Shown here one piece after another: positions 56,040 through 64,000 of a DNA stretch of 64,000 bases; position 1 is the first letter of the stretch; every line of letters begins with the position of its first letter. The DNA is taken from the NCBI RefSeq assembly GCF_013870525.1, contig NZ_JACBXD010000029.1:1-64000 (forward strand), given 5' to 3'. The translations under genes were made by a program, and so were the position numbers. Source of the DNA: Amycolatopsis pittospori. Its GTDB lineage: Bacteria; Actinomycetota; Actinomycetes; Mycobacteriales; Pseudonocardiaceae. The notes beneath the pieces are model-generated. The model saw only the letters and a list, made by a program, of their open reading frames with translations, ran no database searches and was not told the DNA's origin.

Positions 56040-57320
56040 ATGGACGCCGCCGAACTCCTCGCCCTCGACGCGGAACATGTCTGGCACCCGTACGGGCCGA
56101 TGCCGAGCCCGATCGATTCCCTGCTGGTCCGCGAGGCGAGCGGGGTCCGGCTCACCCTCGACGACGGCCGCGAGCTGGTCGACGGCATGTCGTCGTGGTG
56201 GGCGGCGATCCACGGCTACCGGAACCCGGTGCTGGACGCGGCGCTGGCGGAGCAGGCCGGGCGGATGAGTCACGTCATGTTCGGTGGGCTCACCCACGAA
56301 CCGGCCATCATGCTGGCGAAGACCCTGGTCGACCTCGCGCCCGACGGACTGCGGCACGTCTTCCTGTGCGACTCCGGTTCGGTGTCGGTCGAGGTCGCCG
56401 TCAAGATGTGCCTGCAGTACTGGCAGTCGGTGGGGCGCAAGGACAAGCGCAGGCTGATGACCTGGCGCGGCGGCTACCACGGCGACACGTTCACGCCGAT
56501 GAGCGTCTGCGACCCCGAGGGCGGGATGCACTCGCTGTGGCGCGGGATCCTGCCGGATCAGCTGTTCCTGCCCAAGCCGCCGGGCGGCTTCGGCGACGAG
56601 CCGGACCAGGCGTACGTCGACCTGCTCGCGGCCGAGATCGAGCGGCACGCGGGTGAGCTGGCCGCGATCATCGTCGAGCCCGTCGTACAGGGCGCCGGCG
56701 GGATGCGCTTCCACCCGCCCGCGTACCTGCGGGCACTGCGAGAGATCACCGAGGCGAACGACGTCCTGCTCATCTTCGACGAGATCGCCACCGGTTTCGG
56801 CCGCACCGGCACGATGTTCGCCGCCGAACACGCCGGGGTGACGCCGGACGTGCTGTGCCTCGGCAAGGCGCTGACCGGCGGTTACCTGACGATGGCGGCG
56901 GCGCTGTGCACGCCGGAGATCGCGAACGGCATCTCGCGCGGTGAGCTCCCGGTGCTGGCGCACGGGCCGACGTTCATGGCGAACCCGCTGGCCTCGGCCG
57001 TCGCCAACGCTTCACTGGGGATCCTCGCCGAAGGCGGCTGGAAGACCGACGTCCCGCGGATCGGGGCCGCGTTGCGAGCCGGGCTCGAACCGGCTCGCGA
57101 GCTGTCCTCCGTCGTCGACGTCCGGGTGCTCGGCGCCATCGGCGTGGTGGAACTCGATCATCCGGTGGACATGGCGATCGCGACCGAGGTCCTCACCGCG
57201 AACGGTGTCTGGCTGCGGCCGTTCCGGAACCTGATCTACACGATGCCGCCTTACATCTCCGGGGCCGACGACCTCGCCGCGATCACTTCCGCAATGGTCG
57301 CGGCCGCGCAAAAAGCGTAA
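56040..57320 (+). CDS. bioA: Adenosylmethionine-8-amino-7-oxononanoate aminotransferase
   Basis: PLP enzyme of biotin synthesis that makes 7,8-diaminopelargonate using SAM as amino donor. The 426-aa protein has [19 protein letters not shown], the [13 protein letters not shown] loop, [11 protein letters not shown] and the catalytic lysine in [10 protein letters not shown] (Lys near 280). ATG 56040 follows GGAGCG. It lies at the end of an SRPBCC-P450-bioA unit and is followed by two carbonic-anhydrase transporter genes before bioD-bioB. Confidence 0.96.
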
Positions 57321-57375
57321 AAGCGGCCAAGTTCAACCTAAAGAGTGTGATGGCGGCCACAGGAAACCTGGAAGG

Positions 57376-57397
57376 CCACGCTGGGTACAGAGCGTGG
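57376..57397 (+). terminator. bioA: Hairpin after bioA
   Basis: CCACGCT (57376-57382) and AGCGTGG (57391-57397) with an 8-base loop, 56 bases after the bioA stop. No U-tract; possibly a terminator or part of the promoter region for the first SulP gene, which holds about 239 bases in total. Confidence 0.35.
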
Positions 57398-57559
57398 TCG
57401 TGAGTTGATCTTGATCAGGCGAACGGGCGAGTCCGATCGGGAGTCCTGTCGGGTGGTTTGTCACAAAAGGGTGCTATGTCCTAGTTCCCTGGTGCACAAG
57501 CAAACCTGAGAAACCTTTGCGTAGCGGACTTTTGCGCGCCGATCGGGTTTCCTGCCCCC

Positions 57560-59818
57560 ATGATCGACATCGTTGGTGACGAGCACGACACCGGGCCCCC
57601 GGGCCGCCGCAACGCCACATCGACCCTCCTGAAGAACCTTCGCCACGACATCCCGGCTTCGGTCGTCGTCTTCCTCGTGGCTGTCCCGCTCTCGCTCGGC
57701 GTCGCACACGCCGCCGGAGCCCCCTTGCTCGCCGGACTGATCTCCGCCGTCGTCGGCGGACTCGTCGCGAGCCTCTTCGGCGCTTCCGCCCTCCAGGTCA
57801 GCGGCCCGTCCGCCGCCCTGACCGTCGTCCTCGCGGAGACCATCGCCACCTTCGGCTGGGCCGCCACCTGCGCCATCACCGCCGCGGCGGGCGTGGTCCA
57901 GATCCTCTTCGGCATCAGCCGCGTCGCCCGGGCCACGCTGGCCATCTCGCCGGCGATCGTGCACGGCCTGCTCGCCGGGATCGGCCTGATCATCGTCCTC
58001 GGCCAGCTGCACGTCGTACTCGGCGGAGCGGCCCAGGGTTCCACCGTCGCGAACATCCTCGCGCTGCCCGGCCAGATCGTCGGCCACCACGACCAGGCCG
58101 CGCTGATCGGCGTCGTCACCATCGGCGTCCTGCTGGCGTGGACCCGGATGCCGCGTTCGGTGCGCCGCGTCCCCGGTCCGCTGGCCGCCGTCGCGCTGGC
58201 CACCGGCCTTTCCGTCGCCGCGGGGATGGACCTGCCGCGCGTCGACCTCCCGAACGGGCTGCCGGGACTGGGTTTCGTCCCCGAGGCGCCGTCGGGATCC
58301 TGGTCGGCGATCATCGCCGCCGTGCTCTCCATCGCGCTCATCGCCAGCCTGGAGAGCCTGCTTTCCGCCGTCGCCGTCGACAAACTGCGCGACGGCCCCC
58401 GCACCGACCTCAACCGCGAACTGGTCGGCCAGGGCCTGGCGAACGTCGCCGCCGGCTCGCTCGGCGGCTTCCCGGTCACCGGGGTCGTCGTACGCACCAT
58501 GACCAACTTCGAAGCGGGCGCCCGCACCCGGATGTCGGCGATCCTGCACAGCGCCTGGATCCTCGGCTGCTGCCTGTTCCTGGCCGGCGCGCTGCGGCTG
58601 ATCCCGCTCGCCGCCCTGGCCGGACTCCTCGTCTACGTCGGCGCCAAACTGGTCAACGTCACCAGCCTGCGGGAGGTCCGCCGCCACGGCGACCTGCCGG
58701 TCTACCTCGCGACGCTCGTCGGCGCGGTCGCGGTCAACCTCCTCACCGGGGTCGCCGCCGGAATCGTGGTGGCGCTCATGCTGATGCTGCGCCGGATGTT
58801 GTTCTCCGGCATCCACGTCGAACCGGACGGCGCGCGGACCCGCGTCGTCATCGAAGGCGCGCTCACCTTCCTTTCCGTGCCCAGGCTCACGACCGTCCTG
58901 GCCGGTGTCCCCGAGCGATCCGAGGTGACCTTGGAACTGCTCGTCGACTACCTCGACCACGCCGCTTTCGACTGCCTGCGCGGCTGGCAGCGCGCGTACG
59001 AACGCGCCGGGGGAGTCGTGATCGTCGACGAGATCGGGCATCCGTGGTTCGGTCGCGGCAAGGCGGGTGTGCCGACCGTGCGCCGCGGCGTCGCGTCCCG
59101 CGTGGTGCCGCGCTGGCTCGCGCCGTGGTCGGAATGGCAGGCGGAGCATCTGGAACTGCCGAGCCAGCGTGGCGGCAGCGTGCCGTTGTGCCGTGGTGCT
59201 TCGGAATTCCAGCGGCGGACCGCGCCGCTGCTGCGGCAGACCTGGGACGGGCTCGCGAACGGGCAGCAGCCGCACACGCTGTTCGTCACGTGCGGAGACG
59301 CGCGGGTCGTGCCGAACCTCATCACCACCAGCGGTCCGGGCGACCTGTTCACCGTGCGGAACATCGGAAACCTCGTGCCGCACGCCAGTACCGAAGCGGA
59401 TTTCTCCGTGGGAGCGGCGATCGAGTACGCCGTCGGCGTGTTGAGGGTGCGGGAAGTGGTGGTGTGCGGGCATTCCGGCTGCGGCGCGATGAAGGCGTTG
59501 CTCGGGGACGCGCCCAGCGGGCTCGCGCGACTCGGCGGCTGGCTGCGCCACGGCGAGGAAACGTTGCGGCGCAGGGAAAGCGAGGGCCCGGTGCTGCTCG
59601 ACGGCGCCCGCCCCGACCACGAAGGCGATCAGCTCGCCCTGCACAACGTGGTGCAGCAACTGGAAAACCTGCGTTCGTACCCGGTCGTCGAAGCCGCGCT
59701 GGCGCGGGACGAACTCCGGCTCACCGGCATGTACTTCGACGTCGGGAAGGCGAACGTGTACCTGCTCGACGCGGCGCACCGGTCGTTCACTTCGGCGGCC
59801 ACCCCGGTCAAGTCCTGA
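57560..59818 (+). CDS. SulP transporter-STAS-beta-carbonic anhydrase fusion 1
   Basis: A 752-aa fusion. Residues about 25-410 are a SulP anion transporter with about ten helices (HDIPASVVVFLVAVPLSLGVA, QVSGPSAALTV), about 420-500 a diverged STAS-like domain (EGALTFLSVPRLT, LVDYLDHAAFD), about 540-745 a beta-carbonic anhydrase with zinc ligands Cys578, Asp580, His638 and Cys641. Such fusions may import bicarbonate and interconvert it with CO2 at the inner face. ATG 57560. A tandem paralogue follows; both lie between bioA and bioD. Confidence 0.93.
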   Translation: MIDIVGDEHDTGPPGRRNATSTLLKNLRHDIPASVVVFLVAVPLSLGVAHAAGAPLLAGLISAVVGGLVASLFGASALQVSGPSAALTVVLAETIATFGWAATCAITAAAGVVQILFGISRVARATLAISPAIVHGLLAGIGLIIVLGQLHVVLGGAAQGSTVANILALPGQIVGHHDQAALIGVVTIGVLLAWTRMPRSVRRVPGPLAAVALATGLSVAAGMDLPRVDLPNGLPGLGFVPEAPSGSWSAIIAAVLSIALIASLESLLSAVAVDKLRDGPRTDLNRELVGQGLANVAAGSLGGFPVTGVVVRTMTNFEAGARTRMSAILHSAWILGCCLFLAGALRLIPLAALAGLLVYVGAKLVNVTSLREVRRHGDLPVYLATLVGAVAVNLLTGVAAGIVVALMLMLRRMLFSGIHVEPDGARTRVVIEGALTFLSVPRLTTVLAGVPERSEVTLELLVDYLDHAAFDCLRGWQRAYERAGGVVIVDEIGHPWFGRGKAGVPTVRRGVASRVVPRWLAPWSEWQAEHLELPSQRGGSVPLCRGASEFQRRTAPLLRQTWDGLANGQQPHTLFVTCGDARVVPNLITTSGPGDLFTVRNIGNLVPHASTEADFSVGAAIEYAVGVLRVREVVVCGHSGCGAMKALLGDAPSGLARLGGWLRHGEETLRRRESEGPVLLDGARPDHEGDQLALHNVVQQLENLRSYPVVEAALARDELRLTGMYFDVGKANVYLLDAAHRSFTSAATPVKS

Positions 59819-59857
59819 CGCGCTGAAGGGAGCCGGGTCCCAAGGCGAGTGTTCCGA

Positions 59858-59912
59858 GTCCGTGAAGGACTCCTTGAGGGACTCTGGGTCCCTCAAGGAG
59901 TCCTTCACGGAC
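59858..59912. terminator. GTGAAGGACTCC palindrome after SulP-CA 1
   Basis: Perfect 25-base arms (59858-59882, 59888-59912) with 5-base loop TCTGG, 39 bases after the stop. It belongs to the GTGAAGGCC family with a GGACTCC variant, and separates the two SulP-CA genes into two transcripts. Confidence 0.85.
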
Positions 59913-60193
59913 CTCGGTCCCGCCCGGGCAGCGGAGGTACCTGAAACATTTTTGGTTCTGACCCGAATCGCCACTCGCCACTGAGACCGAGTCGATGGTT
60001 CCGTGTGACTGGGTGGACGACACCCGCTTATTCGACGCGGTTTCCCTCTTCGCTCGGGGTCCCAGCATTTGGGAGCCCGCAAGGCTTTTCGCAACGCGGA
60101 GGACATCTCCAGGCAACGAAACGGCCCGAAAGTGGGCCACGCCACCCATCGGAAGGACGATATTCACTCGATCAGGTGGTGCATAGCGGACAA
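59913..60193. other. Leader between the tandem SulP-CA genes
   Basis: A gene-free gap. It holds a decayed right half of the GTCGTGAGTG palindrome family at about 59954-59977 (GGTTCTGACCCGAATCGCC). TAGCGGAC at 60184-60191 also occurs 38 bases upstream of the first SulP-CA start (57522-57529), which suggests a shared promoter element or duplicated leader. The left part (59913-59950) has no features. Confidence 0.5.
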
Positions 60194-60213
60194 ATCACCA
60201 GTTTCCTGGTGAT
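60194..60213 (+). promoter_or_regulatory. Hairpin covering the SulP-CA 2 ribosome site
   Basis: ATCACCAG (60194-60201) and CTGGTGAT (60206-60213) form a perfect 8-base stem with loop TTTC, ending one base before ATG 60215. The only weak ribosome-site-like GGTGATC lies in its second arm. It could be an operator or an RNA switch that blocks translation start. Confidence 0.45.
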
Positions 60214-60214
60214 C

Positions 60215-62410
60215 ATGAACCCCCAACCACGACTCGCCGTGCTCCGTCACGACCTGCCCGCATCCTTGGTGGTGTTCCTCGTCGCCGTCCCGTTGTCACT
60301 CGGGATCGCGCTCGCGTCAGGAGCCCCGATCGTCGCGGGGCTGATCGCGGCCGTCGTGGGAGGTGTGGTCGCCGGCGCGCTCGGTGGCTCCCCGCTTCAG
60401 GTCAGCGGCCCGGCCGCCGGCCTGACGGTGATCATGGCCGAAACGATCGCGACCTTCGGCTGGAAGACGACCTGCGCGATCACCGTCGCCGCGGGCGCGC
60501 TGCAGATCCTGCTCGGGCTGAGCCGTATCGCCCGCGCGGCGCTGGCGATCTCGCCCGCCATCGTCCACGGCATGCTCGCCGGCATCGGCGTCACCATCGT
60601 CCTGGGGCAGCTGCACGTCGTCCTCGGCGGATCGGCGCAGAGCTCCGCGCTCAAGAACATCGCCGAACTGCCCGCGCAGATCGTCGGCCACCACGACACC
60701 GCCGCGCTGATCGGCGTGCTCACCATCGGCATCCTGCTGCTGTGGCCGCGGCTGCCGAAGTCGGTCCGCAGGGTGCCCGGGCCGCTGGCGGCCATCGCGC
60801 TGGTGACGGTGCTGTCCGTCGCCACCGGTATGACCCTGCCCCGCGTCGAACTGCCCGGCGACCTGCTCACCATCCGTTTCGCGCCCGAATTCCCGAGCAC
60901 CGGCTGGGGCGCGTTCATCGTCGCGGTCATCACCATCGCGTTGATCGCCAGCGTCGAAAGCCTGCTTTCGGCCGTCGCGGTCGACAAGATGCACACCGGC
61001 CCGCGGTCGAACCTCGACCGCGAGCTCATCGGCCAGGGCGCCGCGAACATGACCTCCGGCGCGCTCGGCGGCCTCCCGGTCACCGGTGTGATCGTCCGCA
61101 GCTCGACCAACGTCGCCAGTGGCGCCCGCACCAGGGCGTCCGCGATCCTGCACGGTGTCTGGATCCTGGTCTTCGTCGCCGCGTTCGCCGGAATGATCCA
61201 GAACATCCCGCTCGCCGCGCTCGCCGGCCTGCTCGTCCACGTCGGCGCGAAGCTGGTGAATCCCGGCCACATGAAGCAGGTCCTCAAACACGGCGACCTG
61301 GGGCTGTACCTGATCACGCTCGCCGGTGTCGTCGTCTTCGACCTGCTCACCGGGGTCCTGCTCGGTATCGCGCTGTCGGTGCTGCTGATGCTGCGGCGCA
61401 CGGTGTGGTCCGGCATCCACGCCGAACGCGATGGCGACGAATGGCGCGTCGTCGTCGAAGGCGTCCTGACGTTCCTCTCGGTGCCGAGGCTCAGCCGCGT
61501 GCTCGCGACGGTGCCTGACGGCGCGAAGGTGACCCTGGAGCTCGTCGTCGACTACCTCGACCACGCCGCCTTCGAAAGCCTCTCGAACTGGCAGCAGGGA
61601 CACGAGCGCACCGGCGGCGAGGTCCGCGTCGACGAGGTCGGGCATCCGTGGTTCGCCAACGGCAAATCCGGTGATCCCACACTGACCCGCACGGACGCCG
61701 TGCGTTCGGTGCCGCGGTTCCTCGCGCCGTGGTCGGACTGGCAGGCGAAGGACGTCGAGGTGCCCGGACAGCGCGGGGGGCCGACCCGGCGCGGCGCGGC
61801 CGAGTTCCAGCGGCGCACCGCCGCGTTGATGCAGCCCGCGCTCAGCAAGCTGGCGGGCGGCCAGTCGCCGCACACCCTGTTCATCACCTGCGGCGACGCG
61901 CGGATCGTGCCGAACATGATCACCACCAGCGGTCCCGGCGACCTGTTCACCGTCCGCAACATCGGGAACCTGGTGCCCGCCCGGCGGGCCGACCCGTCGA
62001 TGGGCGCCACCGTCGAGTTCGCCGTCGGCGTGCTCAAGGTGCGCGAGATCGTCGTCTGCGGGCACTCCGGCTGCGGCGCGATGCAGGCGCTTTCGACCGG
62101 TGCCCCCGACGGCGCGCCGATGCTGGCGTCCTGGCTGCACCACGCCGAGCCGAGCGCCAAGCGGAAGGCCTCGGTGACCCTCGACGGCGAGCGGCCGGAC
62201 TCCGAGGTCAACCGGCTGGCACTGCAGAACGTGCTGCAGCAGCTCGACCACCTGCGCCACTACCCGCTGATCGCCGAAGCCGAGGCGCGCGGCGAACTGC
62301 ACCTGACCGGTATGTACTTCGACGTCGGGGCGGCCCAGGTCTATCTGTCGGATGACGAGAGCCCGTCTTTCACACCCGTCGGAGTGGTCCCCTTCAGTCC
62401 GGCCACGTAG
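60215..62410 (+). CDS. SulP transporter-STAS-beta-carbonic anhydrase fusion 2
   Basis: A 731-aa paralogue of the upstream gene with the same order: SulP (about 10-395; HDLPASLVVFLVAVPLSLGIALASG), STAS-like (about 405-480) and carbonic anhydrase with Cys559, Asp561, His617, Cys620. Both CGDARV strings keep Asp in place of the Ser-containing D-S-R of many beta-CAs. ATG 60215 is the first Met of the family alignment; upstream in-frame sequence lacks a ribosome site. It is likely a tandem duplicate, clearly diverged from the first. Confidence 0.92.
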   Translation: MNPQPRLAVLRHDLPASLVVFLVAVPLSLGIALASGAPIVAGLIAAVVGGVVAGALGGSPLQVSGPAAGLTVIMAETIATFGWKTTCAITVAAGALQILLGLSRIARAALAISPAIVHGMLAGIGVTIVLGQLHVVLGGSAQSSALKNIAELPAQIVGHHDTAALIGVLTIGILLLWPRLPKSVRRVPGPLAAIALVTVLSVATGMTLPRVELPGDLLTIRFAPEFPSTGWGAFIVAVITIALIASVESLLSAVAVDKMHTGPRSNLDRELIGQGAANMTSGALGGLPVTGVIVRSSTNVASGARTRASAILHGVWILVFVAAFAGMIQNIPLAALAGLLVHVGAKLVNPGHMKQVLKHGDLGLYLITLAGVVVFDLLTGVLLGIALSVLLMLRRTVWSGIHAERDGDEWRVVVEGVLTFLSVPRLSRVLATVPDGAKVTLELVVDYLDHAAFESLSNWQQGHERTGGEVRVDEVGHPWFANGKSGDPTLTRTDAVRSVPRFLAPWSDWQAKDVEVPGQRGGPTRRGAAEFQRRTAALMQPALSKLAGGQSPHTLFITCGDARIVPNMITTSGPGDLFTVRNIGNLVPARRADPSMGATVEFAVGVLKVREIVVCGHSGCGAMQALSTGAPDGAPMLASWLHHAEPSAKRKASVTLDGERPDSEVNRLALQNVLQQLDHLRHYPLIAEAEARGELHLTGMYFDVGAAQVYLSDDESPSFTPVGVVPFSPAT

Positions 62411-62464: not shown

Positions 62465-62484
62465 GCAGACTAGATTCTGTGTAC

Positions 62485-63207
62485 GTGAGCATGCTGGTCA
62501 TGACCGGCACCGGTACAGGTGTCGGCAAGACGATCTCCACCGCCGCCATCGCCGCACTGGCCGCCGGTCAAGGCCAGCGTGTCGCCGTGCTGAAACCGGC
62601 ACAGACCGGGGTCGGGCCGGACGAGCCGGGTGATCTCGCGGACGTCCTCCGTCTCGCGGGTCCGGTCACCACTCGTGAGCTGCGGCGATATCCGGATCCA
62701 CTGTCGCCGGAAGCCGCCTCGCGGATGTCCGGGCTGCCGACCCTCACCCCGAGCGAGATCGCGGCCGCCGCGAGCGACCTCGACGGTGAACACGACCTCA
62801 CGCTCATCGAGGGCGCGGGCGGTCTGCTGGTCCGGTTCGACGCCGACGGTGCCACGCTGGCCGACGTCGCGTGGTCCCTCGGCGCGCTGGTCATCATCGT
62901 GGCCGAGGCCGGGCTGGGCACGCTCAACGCGACCGCGCTGACCGCCGAGGTCGCGACCAAACGCGGGCTCACCGTGGCCGGCGTGATCATCGGCTCGTGG
63001 CCCGAAGAACCGGACCTGGCGGCGGTGTCGAATCTGCAGGACCTGTCCGTCGCGGCCGGCGCGCCCCTGCTGGGCGCGCTGCCCGCCGGGATGGGTGAGT
63101 CCGGGCGGGAGGAGTTCGCCGAGCAGGCCAGGGCCGGACTCTCGCCGTGGTTCGGCGGCGTGTTCGATCCCGAATGCTTCGCGGGCAGCACGTCGGCCCA
63201 GAAGTGA
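62485..63207 (+). CDS. bioD: Dethiobiotin synthetase
   Basis: Closes the ureido ring of dethiobiotin using CO2 and ATP. The 240-aa protein has the P-loop GTGTGVGKT near residue 9, KPAQTG, and EGAGGLLV. GTG 62485 puts the protein at VSMLVMTGTGTG, as in relatives; GTG 62479 or ATG 62491 are alternatives. bioB follows with 84 bases between stop and start. Its direct use of CO2 makes the neighbouring carbonic-anhydrase transporter fusions interesting. Confidence 0.95.
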   Translation: MSMLVMTGTGTGVGKTISTAAIAALAAGQGQRVAVLKPAQTGVGPDEPGDLADVLRLAGPVTTRELRRYPDPLSPEAASRMSGLPTLTPSEIAAAASDLDGEHDLTLIEGAGGLLVRFDADGATLADVAWSLGALVIIVAEAGLGTLNATALTAEVATKRGLTVAGVIIGSWPEEPDLAAVSNLQDLSVAAGAPLLGALPAGMGESGREEFAEQARAGLSPWFGGVFDPECFAGSTSAQK

Positions 63208-63291
63208 TCTGCGTCGCTGTGGCCGAGCCGCCCGGTCGTGCACGATGATGTGCCTTCGCTCAGATGCCCCACCCCGAACAGGAGCCGCCTC

Positions 63292-64000
63292 GTGACCTCA
63301 GCCCCGGAGACCGTCGACATCCTCGCCGTGGCGCGTGAACAGGTCCTCGAGCGTGGTGTCGGGCTCAGCGAAGAGCAGATCCTCGAGGTCCTGCGGCTCG
63401 GCGACGAGCACCTGACCGACCTGCTGGCGCTGGCCCACGACGTCCGGATGCGCTGGTGCGGTCCCGAGGTCGAGGTCGAGGGCATCATCAGCCTCAAGAC
63501 CGGCGGCTGCCCCGAGGACTGCCACTTCTGCTCGCAGTCCGGCCGGTTCCCGACGCCGGTGCGTTCGGCGTGGCTCGACATCCCCGGCCTGGTCAAGGCC
63601 GCCCGCCAGACCGCCGAGACCGGCGCGACCGAGTTCTGCATCGTCGCCGCCGTCCGCGGTCCGGACAAGCGGCTGCTCTCGCAGGTCCGCGAGGGCATCA
63701 AGGCCATCCGTGAGGACGGCAACGACATCCAGATCGCCTGCTCACTCGGCATGCTCACCCAGGAGCAGGTCGACGAGCTCGTCGAGATGGGCGTGCACCG
63801 CTACAACCACAACCTGGAGACCGCGCGTTCGCACTTCGCGAACGTCGTCACCACGCATACGTGGGAAGAGCGCTGGGAGACCCTCCGCATGATCCGCGAG
63901 GCGGGCATGGAGGTCTGCTGCGGCGGCATCATCGGGATGGGGGAGAGCGTCGAGCAGCGCGCCGAGTTCGCCGCGCAGCTGGCCGAGCTGAACCCCGACG
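63292..64000 (+). CDS. bioB: Biotin synthase (3' end beyond window)
   Basis: Radical-SAM enzyme that inserts sulfur into dethiobiotin. 236 codons are visible: CPEDCHFC supplies the radical-SAM cysteines, followed by [14 protein letters not shown] and the [21 protein letters not shown] substrate/cluster region. GTG 63292 follows AGGAG at 7 bases. The gene continues past 64000, so its C-terminus is not visible. It is the last member of the biotin set here; bioF was not found. Confidence 0.95.

Follow-up and report, generated by a model that had tools for sequence, protein, structure and literature searches.

SulP-carbonic anhydrase fusion genes are conserved in linkage with bioD-bioB in members of the Pseudonocardiaceae

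The window, a stretch of 64,000 nucleotides from Amycolatopsis pittospori (contig NZ_JACBXD010000029.1), ends in a biotin locus in which all genes lie on the plus strand in the order cytochrome P450, bioA, S1, S2, bioD and bioB (Table 1). S1 and S2 each consist of one open frame (752 and 731 amino acids) that contains both a SulP domain and a β-carbonic anhydrase domain and no internal stop. The bioA product is also above the cut-off of NF004624 (582.2 bits), and bioB, which starts 30 bp after bioD, encodes 356 amino acids in L075 (L, G and g numbers denote loci, genomes and genera). Because the alignment of S1 and the relatives begins at the ATG at 60215, S2 most likely starts there rather than at the GTG at 60005, the earliest start codon of its open frame. 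A P450 gene directly precedes bioA in many members of the Pseudonocardiaceae, whether the fusion is present or not (the window, L062, L120, L121 and L131), and may contribute to the supply of biotin precursors. The possibility of a BioI-like P450 was rejected, as the closest solved structures are TamI and PikC and no entry named BioI is present among the best 60 of 349 matches.

Table 1. Features of the bioA-bioB region in the window.
Feature	Position	Strand	Evidence and remarks
Cytochrome P450	54692..56014	+	PF00067; 25 bp upstream of bioA
bioA, 7,8-diaminopelargonate transaminase	56040..57320	+	TIGR00508, 545.6 bits (cut-off 405)
bioA-S1 spacer with promoter-like block	57321..57559	+	TAGCGGACTTTTGCG at 57522-57536; block common to fusion genes of related genera
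S1, SulP-(STAS-like)-β-carbonic anhydrase fusion, 752 aa	57560..59818	+	SulP at residues 27-375, carbonic anhydrase at 573-732
Promoter-like block upstream of S2	60164..60198	+	TCACTCGATCAGGTGG (60164-60179), then TAGCGGACAAATCAC (60184-60198)
S2, SulP-(STAS-like)-β-carbonic anhydrase fusion, 731 aa from ATG	60215..62410	+	PF00916, PF00484
bioD, dethiobiotin synthetase	62479..63207	+	TIGR00347, 99.9 bits (cut-off 83.3); 68 bp downstream of S2
bioB, biotin synthase	63238..64000, continues beyond window end	+	TIGR00433, 252.4 bits (cut-off 225)

The SulP domain (PF00916, cut-off 23.2 bits) scored 236.8 bits in S1 and 233.9 bits in S2, and the β-carbonic anhydrase domain (Pro_CA, PF00484, cut-off 25.7 bits) scored 142.5 and 147.3 bits, respectively. 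The zinc ligands and the arginine of the dyad are all present, as C578, D580, R582, H638 and C641 in S1 and as C559, D561, R563, H617 and C620 in S2, and the catalytic set of S2 is invariant across 37 aligned sequences. These profile scores and aligned residues bear out the first-pass annotation of this DNA, which had placed two transporter-carbonic anhydrase fusions with complete zinc ligands between bioA and bioD. It had also assigned a STAS domain to both proteins, for which neither S1 nor S2 has a Pfam match, and this part of the architecture is seen only as a STAS-like fold in the structure model. The model of S2 (mean pLDDT 81.3, pTM 0.60) contains a strand-strand-helix-strand-helix-strand unit at residues 400-474, and Foldseek aligned the model over 488-546 columns with SLC26Dg (5da0), SLC26A11 (9iar) and AtSULTR4;1 (7lhv). 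The predicted fold and these long alignments to full-length SLC26/SULTR structures suggest that S1 and S2 contain a degenerate STAS-like domain. The best fold matches were SLC26, SULTR and BicA for the transporter and CcaA for the carbonic anhydrase part. Both proteins missed the cut-offs of the BicA equivalog NF050096 (144.1 bits for S1 and 139.9 bits for S2 versus 880) and of the sulfate permease model TIGR00815 (158.6 bits for each versus 380.45), and the transported ion can therefore not be read from the family models. The genome encodes two more short β-carbonic anhydrases (C59 and C35), which are above the Pfam cut-off and in which the C-x-D-x-R and H-x-x-C motifs were recognized by eye.

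Carbonic anhydrases fused to SulP anion transporters were, to go by the title, reportedly described by Felce and Saier in 2004 and proposed to be bicarbonate transporters; S1 and S2 show the same joining of the two domains, and we know of no biotin linkage from that work. SulP-carbonic anhydrase fusions are present in many actinobacteria, including mycobacteria. The Mycobacterium tuberculosis protein Rv3273 (β-CA3) has a similar length to S1 and S2 and an identical domain order, with 764 amino acids, a transporter domain at 121-414 and a carbonic anhydrase domain at 571-741, and its carbonic anhydrase part was active in vitro with a kcat of 4.3e5 per s (PMC6834203). The word “biotin” is absent from the available text of the article on Rv3273, and the mycobacterial loci examined, a sample that does not include the locus of Rv3273 itself, are mostly situated beside a histidine kinase or a response regulator. 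Next to these mostly mycobacterial fusion genes (for example, L183 and L078), a histidine kinase gene was seen in 20 loci and a response regulator gene in 16.

The cyanobacterial SulP bicarbonate transporter BicA has the same transporter fold (6ki1_B, E 2.3e-18, 26% identity), but the 6ki1 structure is the transporter domain alone, unlike the fusions. In Methylococcus capsulatus, β-CA3 is encoded in an operon with a SulP transporter, for which the authors present a speculative model of bicarbonate import followed by CO2 formation in the cytoplasm (PMC11423575). However, the carbonic anhydrase and SulP are separate proteins in this case, and in the available part of that article they are tied to RubisCO rather than to biotin. 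While the fusion type is already known, we found no published report of its conserved linkage to bioD-bioB, and judging by titles and abstract openings, no biotin linkage of SulP-carbonic anhydrase fusions was found in the open-licence PMC literature.

In a sample of 200 genomes from the family, 181 contained a homolog at E 1e-30, SulP-only proteins included, and the position of the homolog was compared with that of bioD, among the matches listed, in a set of 130 genomes. The association with bio genes, which the first-pass annotation had noted at this locus, recurs in the relatives: in 44 of the 130 placeable genomes, among the matches listed, the fusion is no more than 5 kb away from bioD, and these genomes represent 11 genera (g1, g3, g9, g10, g15, g20, g24, g26, g41, g42 and g44) and three positions in the tree. 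Within the matches listed, it lies upstream of bioD and on the same strand in all 44 linked genomes. The linked genera include Amycolatopsis (g1, to which the genome of the window belongs, and g26), Saccharomonospora (g24) and Herbihabitans (g9), and g42 is assigned to Actinomycetospora from the position of L157 (A. chibensis) within this group in the tree. Other placeable genomes have the fusion at 60-95 kb (38 genomes) or more than 150 kb (7 genomes) from bioD, among the matches listed; the two genes are on different contigs in 26 of the 130 genomes, and 15 genomes have no bioD among the matches listed. Linkage is seen in 14 of 80 named loci (L132-L141, L143, L145, L157 and L158), and the other 66 contain no bioA, bioD, bioB or bioF within the flanks examined, some of which are shortened by contig ends; some genomes are counted both in the named loci and in the family-sample loci. 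The frequency of linkage is far above chance for unrelated positions in genomes of 4-12 Mb, and shared descent explains part of it. The 38 genomes with the 60-95 kb spacing belong to g2, g8, g11, g19, g21, g22, g27, g32 and g45, and in 28 of them the homolog is on the opposite strand with bioD downstream, a pattern which suggests an old large-scale synteny.

The gene order in the main clade is bioA-fusion-bioD-bioB. Between the fusion and bioD there are 19-181 bp in 24 of the 26 loci of the main clade (the exceptions are L136 with 1311 bp and L138 with 2570 bp), the gap between bioD and bioB is 1-107 bp in all 19 main-clade loci showing both genes, and the gap between bioA and the fusion is 134-421 bp with a single outlier of 810 bp in L135; for all these figures the start codons were chosen by a script, and L062/L132 and L058/L143 are the same genomes counted twice. 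The spacing, order and strand suggest that the fusion may be co-transcribed with bioD-bioB. Other members of the Pseudonocardiaceae (L120, L130 and L131) contain bioA-bioD-bioB in the identical order but no fusion between bioA and bioD, which are separated by 96-303 bp in these three loci and by more in six other clusters examined. The order is bioA-fusion-bioF-...-bioD-bioB in Actinomycetospora and fusion-bioF-bioD in the MAG L158. An ancestral order with bioF between bioA and bioD was rejected, as bioF was found in none of nine fusion-free bioA-bioD-bioB clusters at E 1e-25 (L117-L121, L127, L128, L130 and L131). A gene located between bioF and bioD in Actinomycetospora (g42; L048, 12896-13771) has matches to MEDS and STAS_2 and is sensor-like.

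A tree of 166 rows, which was inferred by a quick search and contains open deep forks and long-branch warnings, requires seven changes of the linked label, and its well-supported branches force at least five gains or losses. In a more careful tree of 51 rows, the main clade (100/100) and Actinomycetospora (100/100) were separate, and forcing them together was rejected (lnL difference 43.3, p-AU 0.00023) for these groups, which were picked after viewing an earlier tree. The linked fusions are found at three positions, namely the main clade, Actinomycetospora, and a Pseudonocardiales MAG together with g3 genomes. The MAG L158 pairs (100/100) with L066 (G102, g3) in the 51-row tree. No bio gene was found in the 14.5 kb fetched around L066, of which 3.5 kb is downstream and ends at the contig end; linkage was seen in two further genomes of g3, with distances of 1274 and 1321 bp. 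Since the joining of the two largest linked groups is rejected, the linkage probably arose more than once. Repeated gain is the simplest reading of the trees, and an old linkage followed by many losses is a possible alternative.

The neighbors of the fusion vary within the family. Prauserella (g33) has kept the fusion without an adjoining bio gene (six fetched genomes and two named loci, with one genome in both), which suggests that the fusion has a value of its own; in L107 the fusion is split into two matches, and G095 has a separate cluster that includes a bioD of 44% identity. The fusion and bioD are still adjacent in nine genomes (L037, L050-L053 and L112-L115) for which the 18-19 kb fetched around the pair showed neither bioA nor bioB. 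In one of these, L037 (G053), the best bioB match is only E 6.5e-10, and this organism is possibly a biotin auxotroph. Five of the nine, all of them g26 genomes (G064, G092, G113, G146 and G187), have a distant bioB-bioA-bioF cluster with no bioD match in it, and the bioD adjacent to the fusion is the only bioD match of the genome at E 1e-20, among the matches listed. The second clusters in these genomes (L129 in G113, L123 in G092, L124 in G187, L125 in G064 and L126 in G146) are divergent, with values of 34-35% for bioB, 58-60% for bioA and 55-57% for bioF. The adjacency of the fusion and bioD is thus robust but not obligatory.

Outside the family, overlapping samples of 121 genomes from the order and 296 genomes from the phylum contained matches at E 1e-60 in 32 and 27 genomes, respectively, SulP-only proteins included. 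None of the flanks of 19 loci outside the family (L076-L094, of which L094 is SulP-only and L093 is in two frames) contained bioA, bioD or bioB, and fusions are present but unlinked in Mycobacteriaceae, Nocardiaceae, Micrococcaceae and Streptosporangiaceae. Like the unlinked fusions in Prauserella, these are consistent with the fusions being general inorganic-carbon housekeeping proteins that reside in a housekeeping operon for convenient expression and have no functional tie to biotin, an explanation that we consider possible but doubtful. It also agrees with the five g26 genomes, where the retention of bioD at the site is already explained by its being the only bioD match of the genome at E 1e-20, among the matches listed. 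However, the fusion is found on the same strand and on the same upstream side at all three tree positions, and the tight spacing survives the loss of both flanking bio genes, which argues against this explanation.

The first-pass annotation had further proposed a bicarbonate-supply module linked to carboxylase activity. This holds in part: the genomic finding that would have spoken against it, an absence of linkage in relatives, was not obtained, and as the linkage is seen in relatives (44 of 130 genomes) and at three tree positions, biotin synthesis may plausibly be tied to inorganic carbon. The link to carboxylases is not supported. With the birA of this genome as a query at E 1e-6, no match was found in the 160 fetched homolog loci, and two accD queries from this genome gave accD-like matches in 2 of 160 loci, at 32-34% identity, both searches being run without a positive control; a linkage of the fusions to birA or carboxylase genes was therefore rejected. 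Twenty representatives of the recurrent neighbors were scanned, and outside the main clade the Pfam names were unrelated to biotin or carboxylases, with some representatives lacking a Pfam match. These results, like the absence of bio genes from the 19 outside loci and the situation in Prauserella, are evidence against a general carboxylase module.

Members of the SulP/SLC26 family transport sulfate as well as bicarbonate, and the SulP domain could instead exchange bicarbonate produced by the carbonic anhydrase for imported sulfate or a different anion, so that the link would be one of sulfur supply, for example to BioB. The fold matches to the sulfate transporters SLC26A11 and AtSULTR4;1 and the missed cut-offs of both the BicA and SulP models are compatible with this. 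However, biotin synthesis presumably needs very little sulfur, and none of the 20 neighbor representatives had a Pfam name indicating sulfur assimilation, several being without any match, and we consider a sulfate-based link very unlikely.

The sequences of S1 and S2 agree at 66% of 721 aligned positions, and the divergence within the pair that the first-pass annotation had pointed out is confirmed, with one membrane segment of S1 affected. Of 153 columns with at least 95% conservation in the remaining rows, the S1 clade departs at 6, and three of these changes (S1 positions 71, 84 and 86) are near the QVSGP segment. No such departures were seen in the S2 clade (0 of 146 columns), Actinomycetospora (0 of 147) or g31 (0 of 148). 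S1 also has the longer stem branch in the tree. Judging from these comparisons, S2 is the less changed, conservative copy and S1 the derived copy, with residues altered near the presumed anion path. A switch of substrate or a regulatory role of S1 after the duplication in Amycolatopsis, with S2 retaining the original role, would fit this pattern, but we regard it as rather unlikely. Changes at conserved columns are not unique to S1, since Prauserella (2 of 149) and one Nocardia tandem copy (5 of 151) also have them, and the carbonic anhydrase ligands and the open frame of S1 are intact. Furthermore, L133 and L135 carry a single copy, which falls on the S2 branch, and S1 may for this reason be merely dispensable. 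Such a shift in S1 and the recruitment to the biotin genes that we favor below can be true together. Adjacent pairs of SulP-carbonic anhydrase homologs are also present in Nocardia genomes (L190, L200, L201 and L204), on a separate branch of the tree.

Both S1 and S2 are preceded by a promoter-like block, which consists of a sequence near CATAGCGGACATTTCAC, followed after about 10-14 bp by CGGTTATCTGGTG. With up to three mismatches, the core of the block was found upstream of 23 of 171 homolog genes and none of 171 in the reversed control, using a pattern derived from some of the very sequences scored. At four mismatches there were 9 matches versus 14 in the reversed control, and the weaker matches are meaningless since the control is at least as frequent. 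Of the 23 block-bearing genes, 22 are bio-linked, corresponding to 22 of the 39 linked genes in the main clade, with five genomes present twice, and the only unlinked one is L110 (g31). None of the six Prauserella loci that were fetched showed the block. It may be the promoter of the fusion, possibly now also serving bioD-bioB. A wider regulon was rejected, as the genome contains 25 matches at up to three mismatches versus 14 in the reversed control, with the S2 site alone at two mismatches and the others at three. A palindrome-like sequence, TCACYCGATCRGGTGA, has eight matches in the window, with some single sites scored on both strands, compared with a shuffle mean of 2.63, and 1 of 100 shuffles reaches eight. 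We do not claim it as an operator because the S1-S2 spacer is its only site in the region of interest.

The reading that we favor, with about even confidence, is that a bicarbonate/CO2 protein of the Felce-Saier type was drawn into the bioD-bioB unit as its first gene, whereby inorganic carbon became tied to biotin. It is favored by the frequency, order, strand and close spacing of the linkage, the promoter-like block, the three tree positions, the nine genomes in which only bioD stayed with the fusion, the complete carbonic anhydrase ligands, the fold matches and the activity of the carbonic anhydrase part of Rv3273. The SulP domain, the degenerate STAS-like domain and the β-carbonic anhydrase would act jointly on inorganic carbon at the membrane, where the transporter domain would move bicarbonate and the carbonic anhydrase, placed on the cytoplasmic side, would interconvert bicarbonate and CO2. 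By leading the bioD-bioB transcription unit in this clade, the fusion would let inorganic carbon handling rise together with biotin synthesis. BioD uses CO2 and biotin carboxylases use bicarbonate; the fusion could serve both, with CO2 going to the BioD reaction and bicarbonate to the biotin-dependent carboxylases whose cofactor is under synthesis. The use of bicarbonate has been called likely for one biotin carboxylase in the available part of a published article (PMC10880623). Against this recruitment stand the unlinked fusions in Prauserella and in 66 of the 80 named loci, the genomes in which the fusion is 60-95 kb or more than 150 kb from bioD, the lack of a carboxylase association, and the two further small β-carbonic anhydrases in the genome, which count against a dedicated module. 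The family models also do not give the transported ion, and the genome shows no wider regulon for the block. Biotin is required in trace amounts, and a dedicated CO2 supply for BioD is thus not obviously needed.

A more specific version, in which the fusion was repeatedly adopted as an inorganic-carbon supplier dedicated to dethiobiotin synthetase, with bicarbonate import, CO2 release at the membrane near BioD and a shared transcript, seems improbable to us. If it were true, biotin synthesis, and hence all biotin-dependent carboxylation, would be coupled to external inorganic carbon.

This type of fusion protein was known before, and its linkage with bioD-bioB is real and conserved, and probably of repeated origin. 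Its conserved and probably repeated placement next to bioD is a genomic clue to the partner pathway of the fusion. If the tie to biotin is confirmed, these bacteria would be heterotrophs in which a vitamin pathway is adjusted to inorganic carbon, and if it is not, the fusion would be a good example of an operon passenger.
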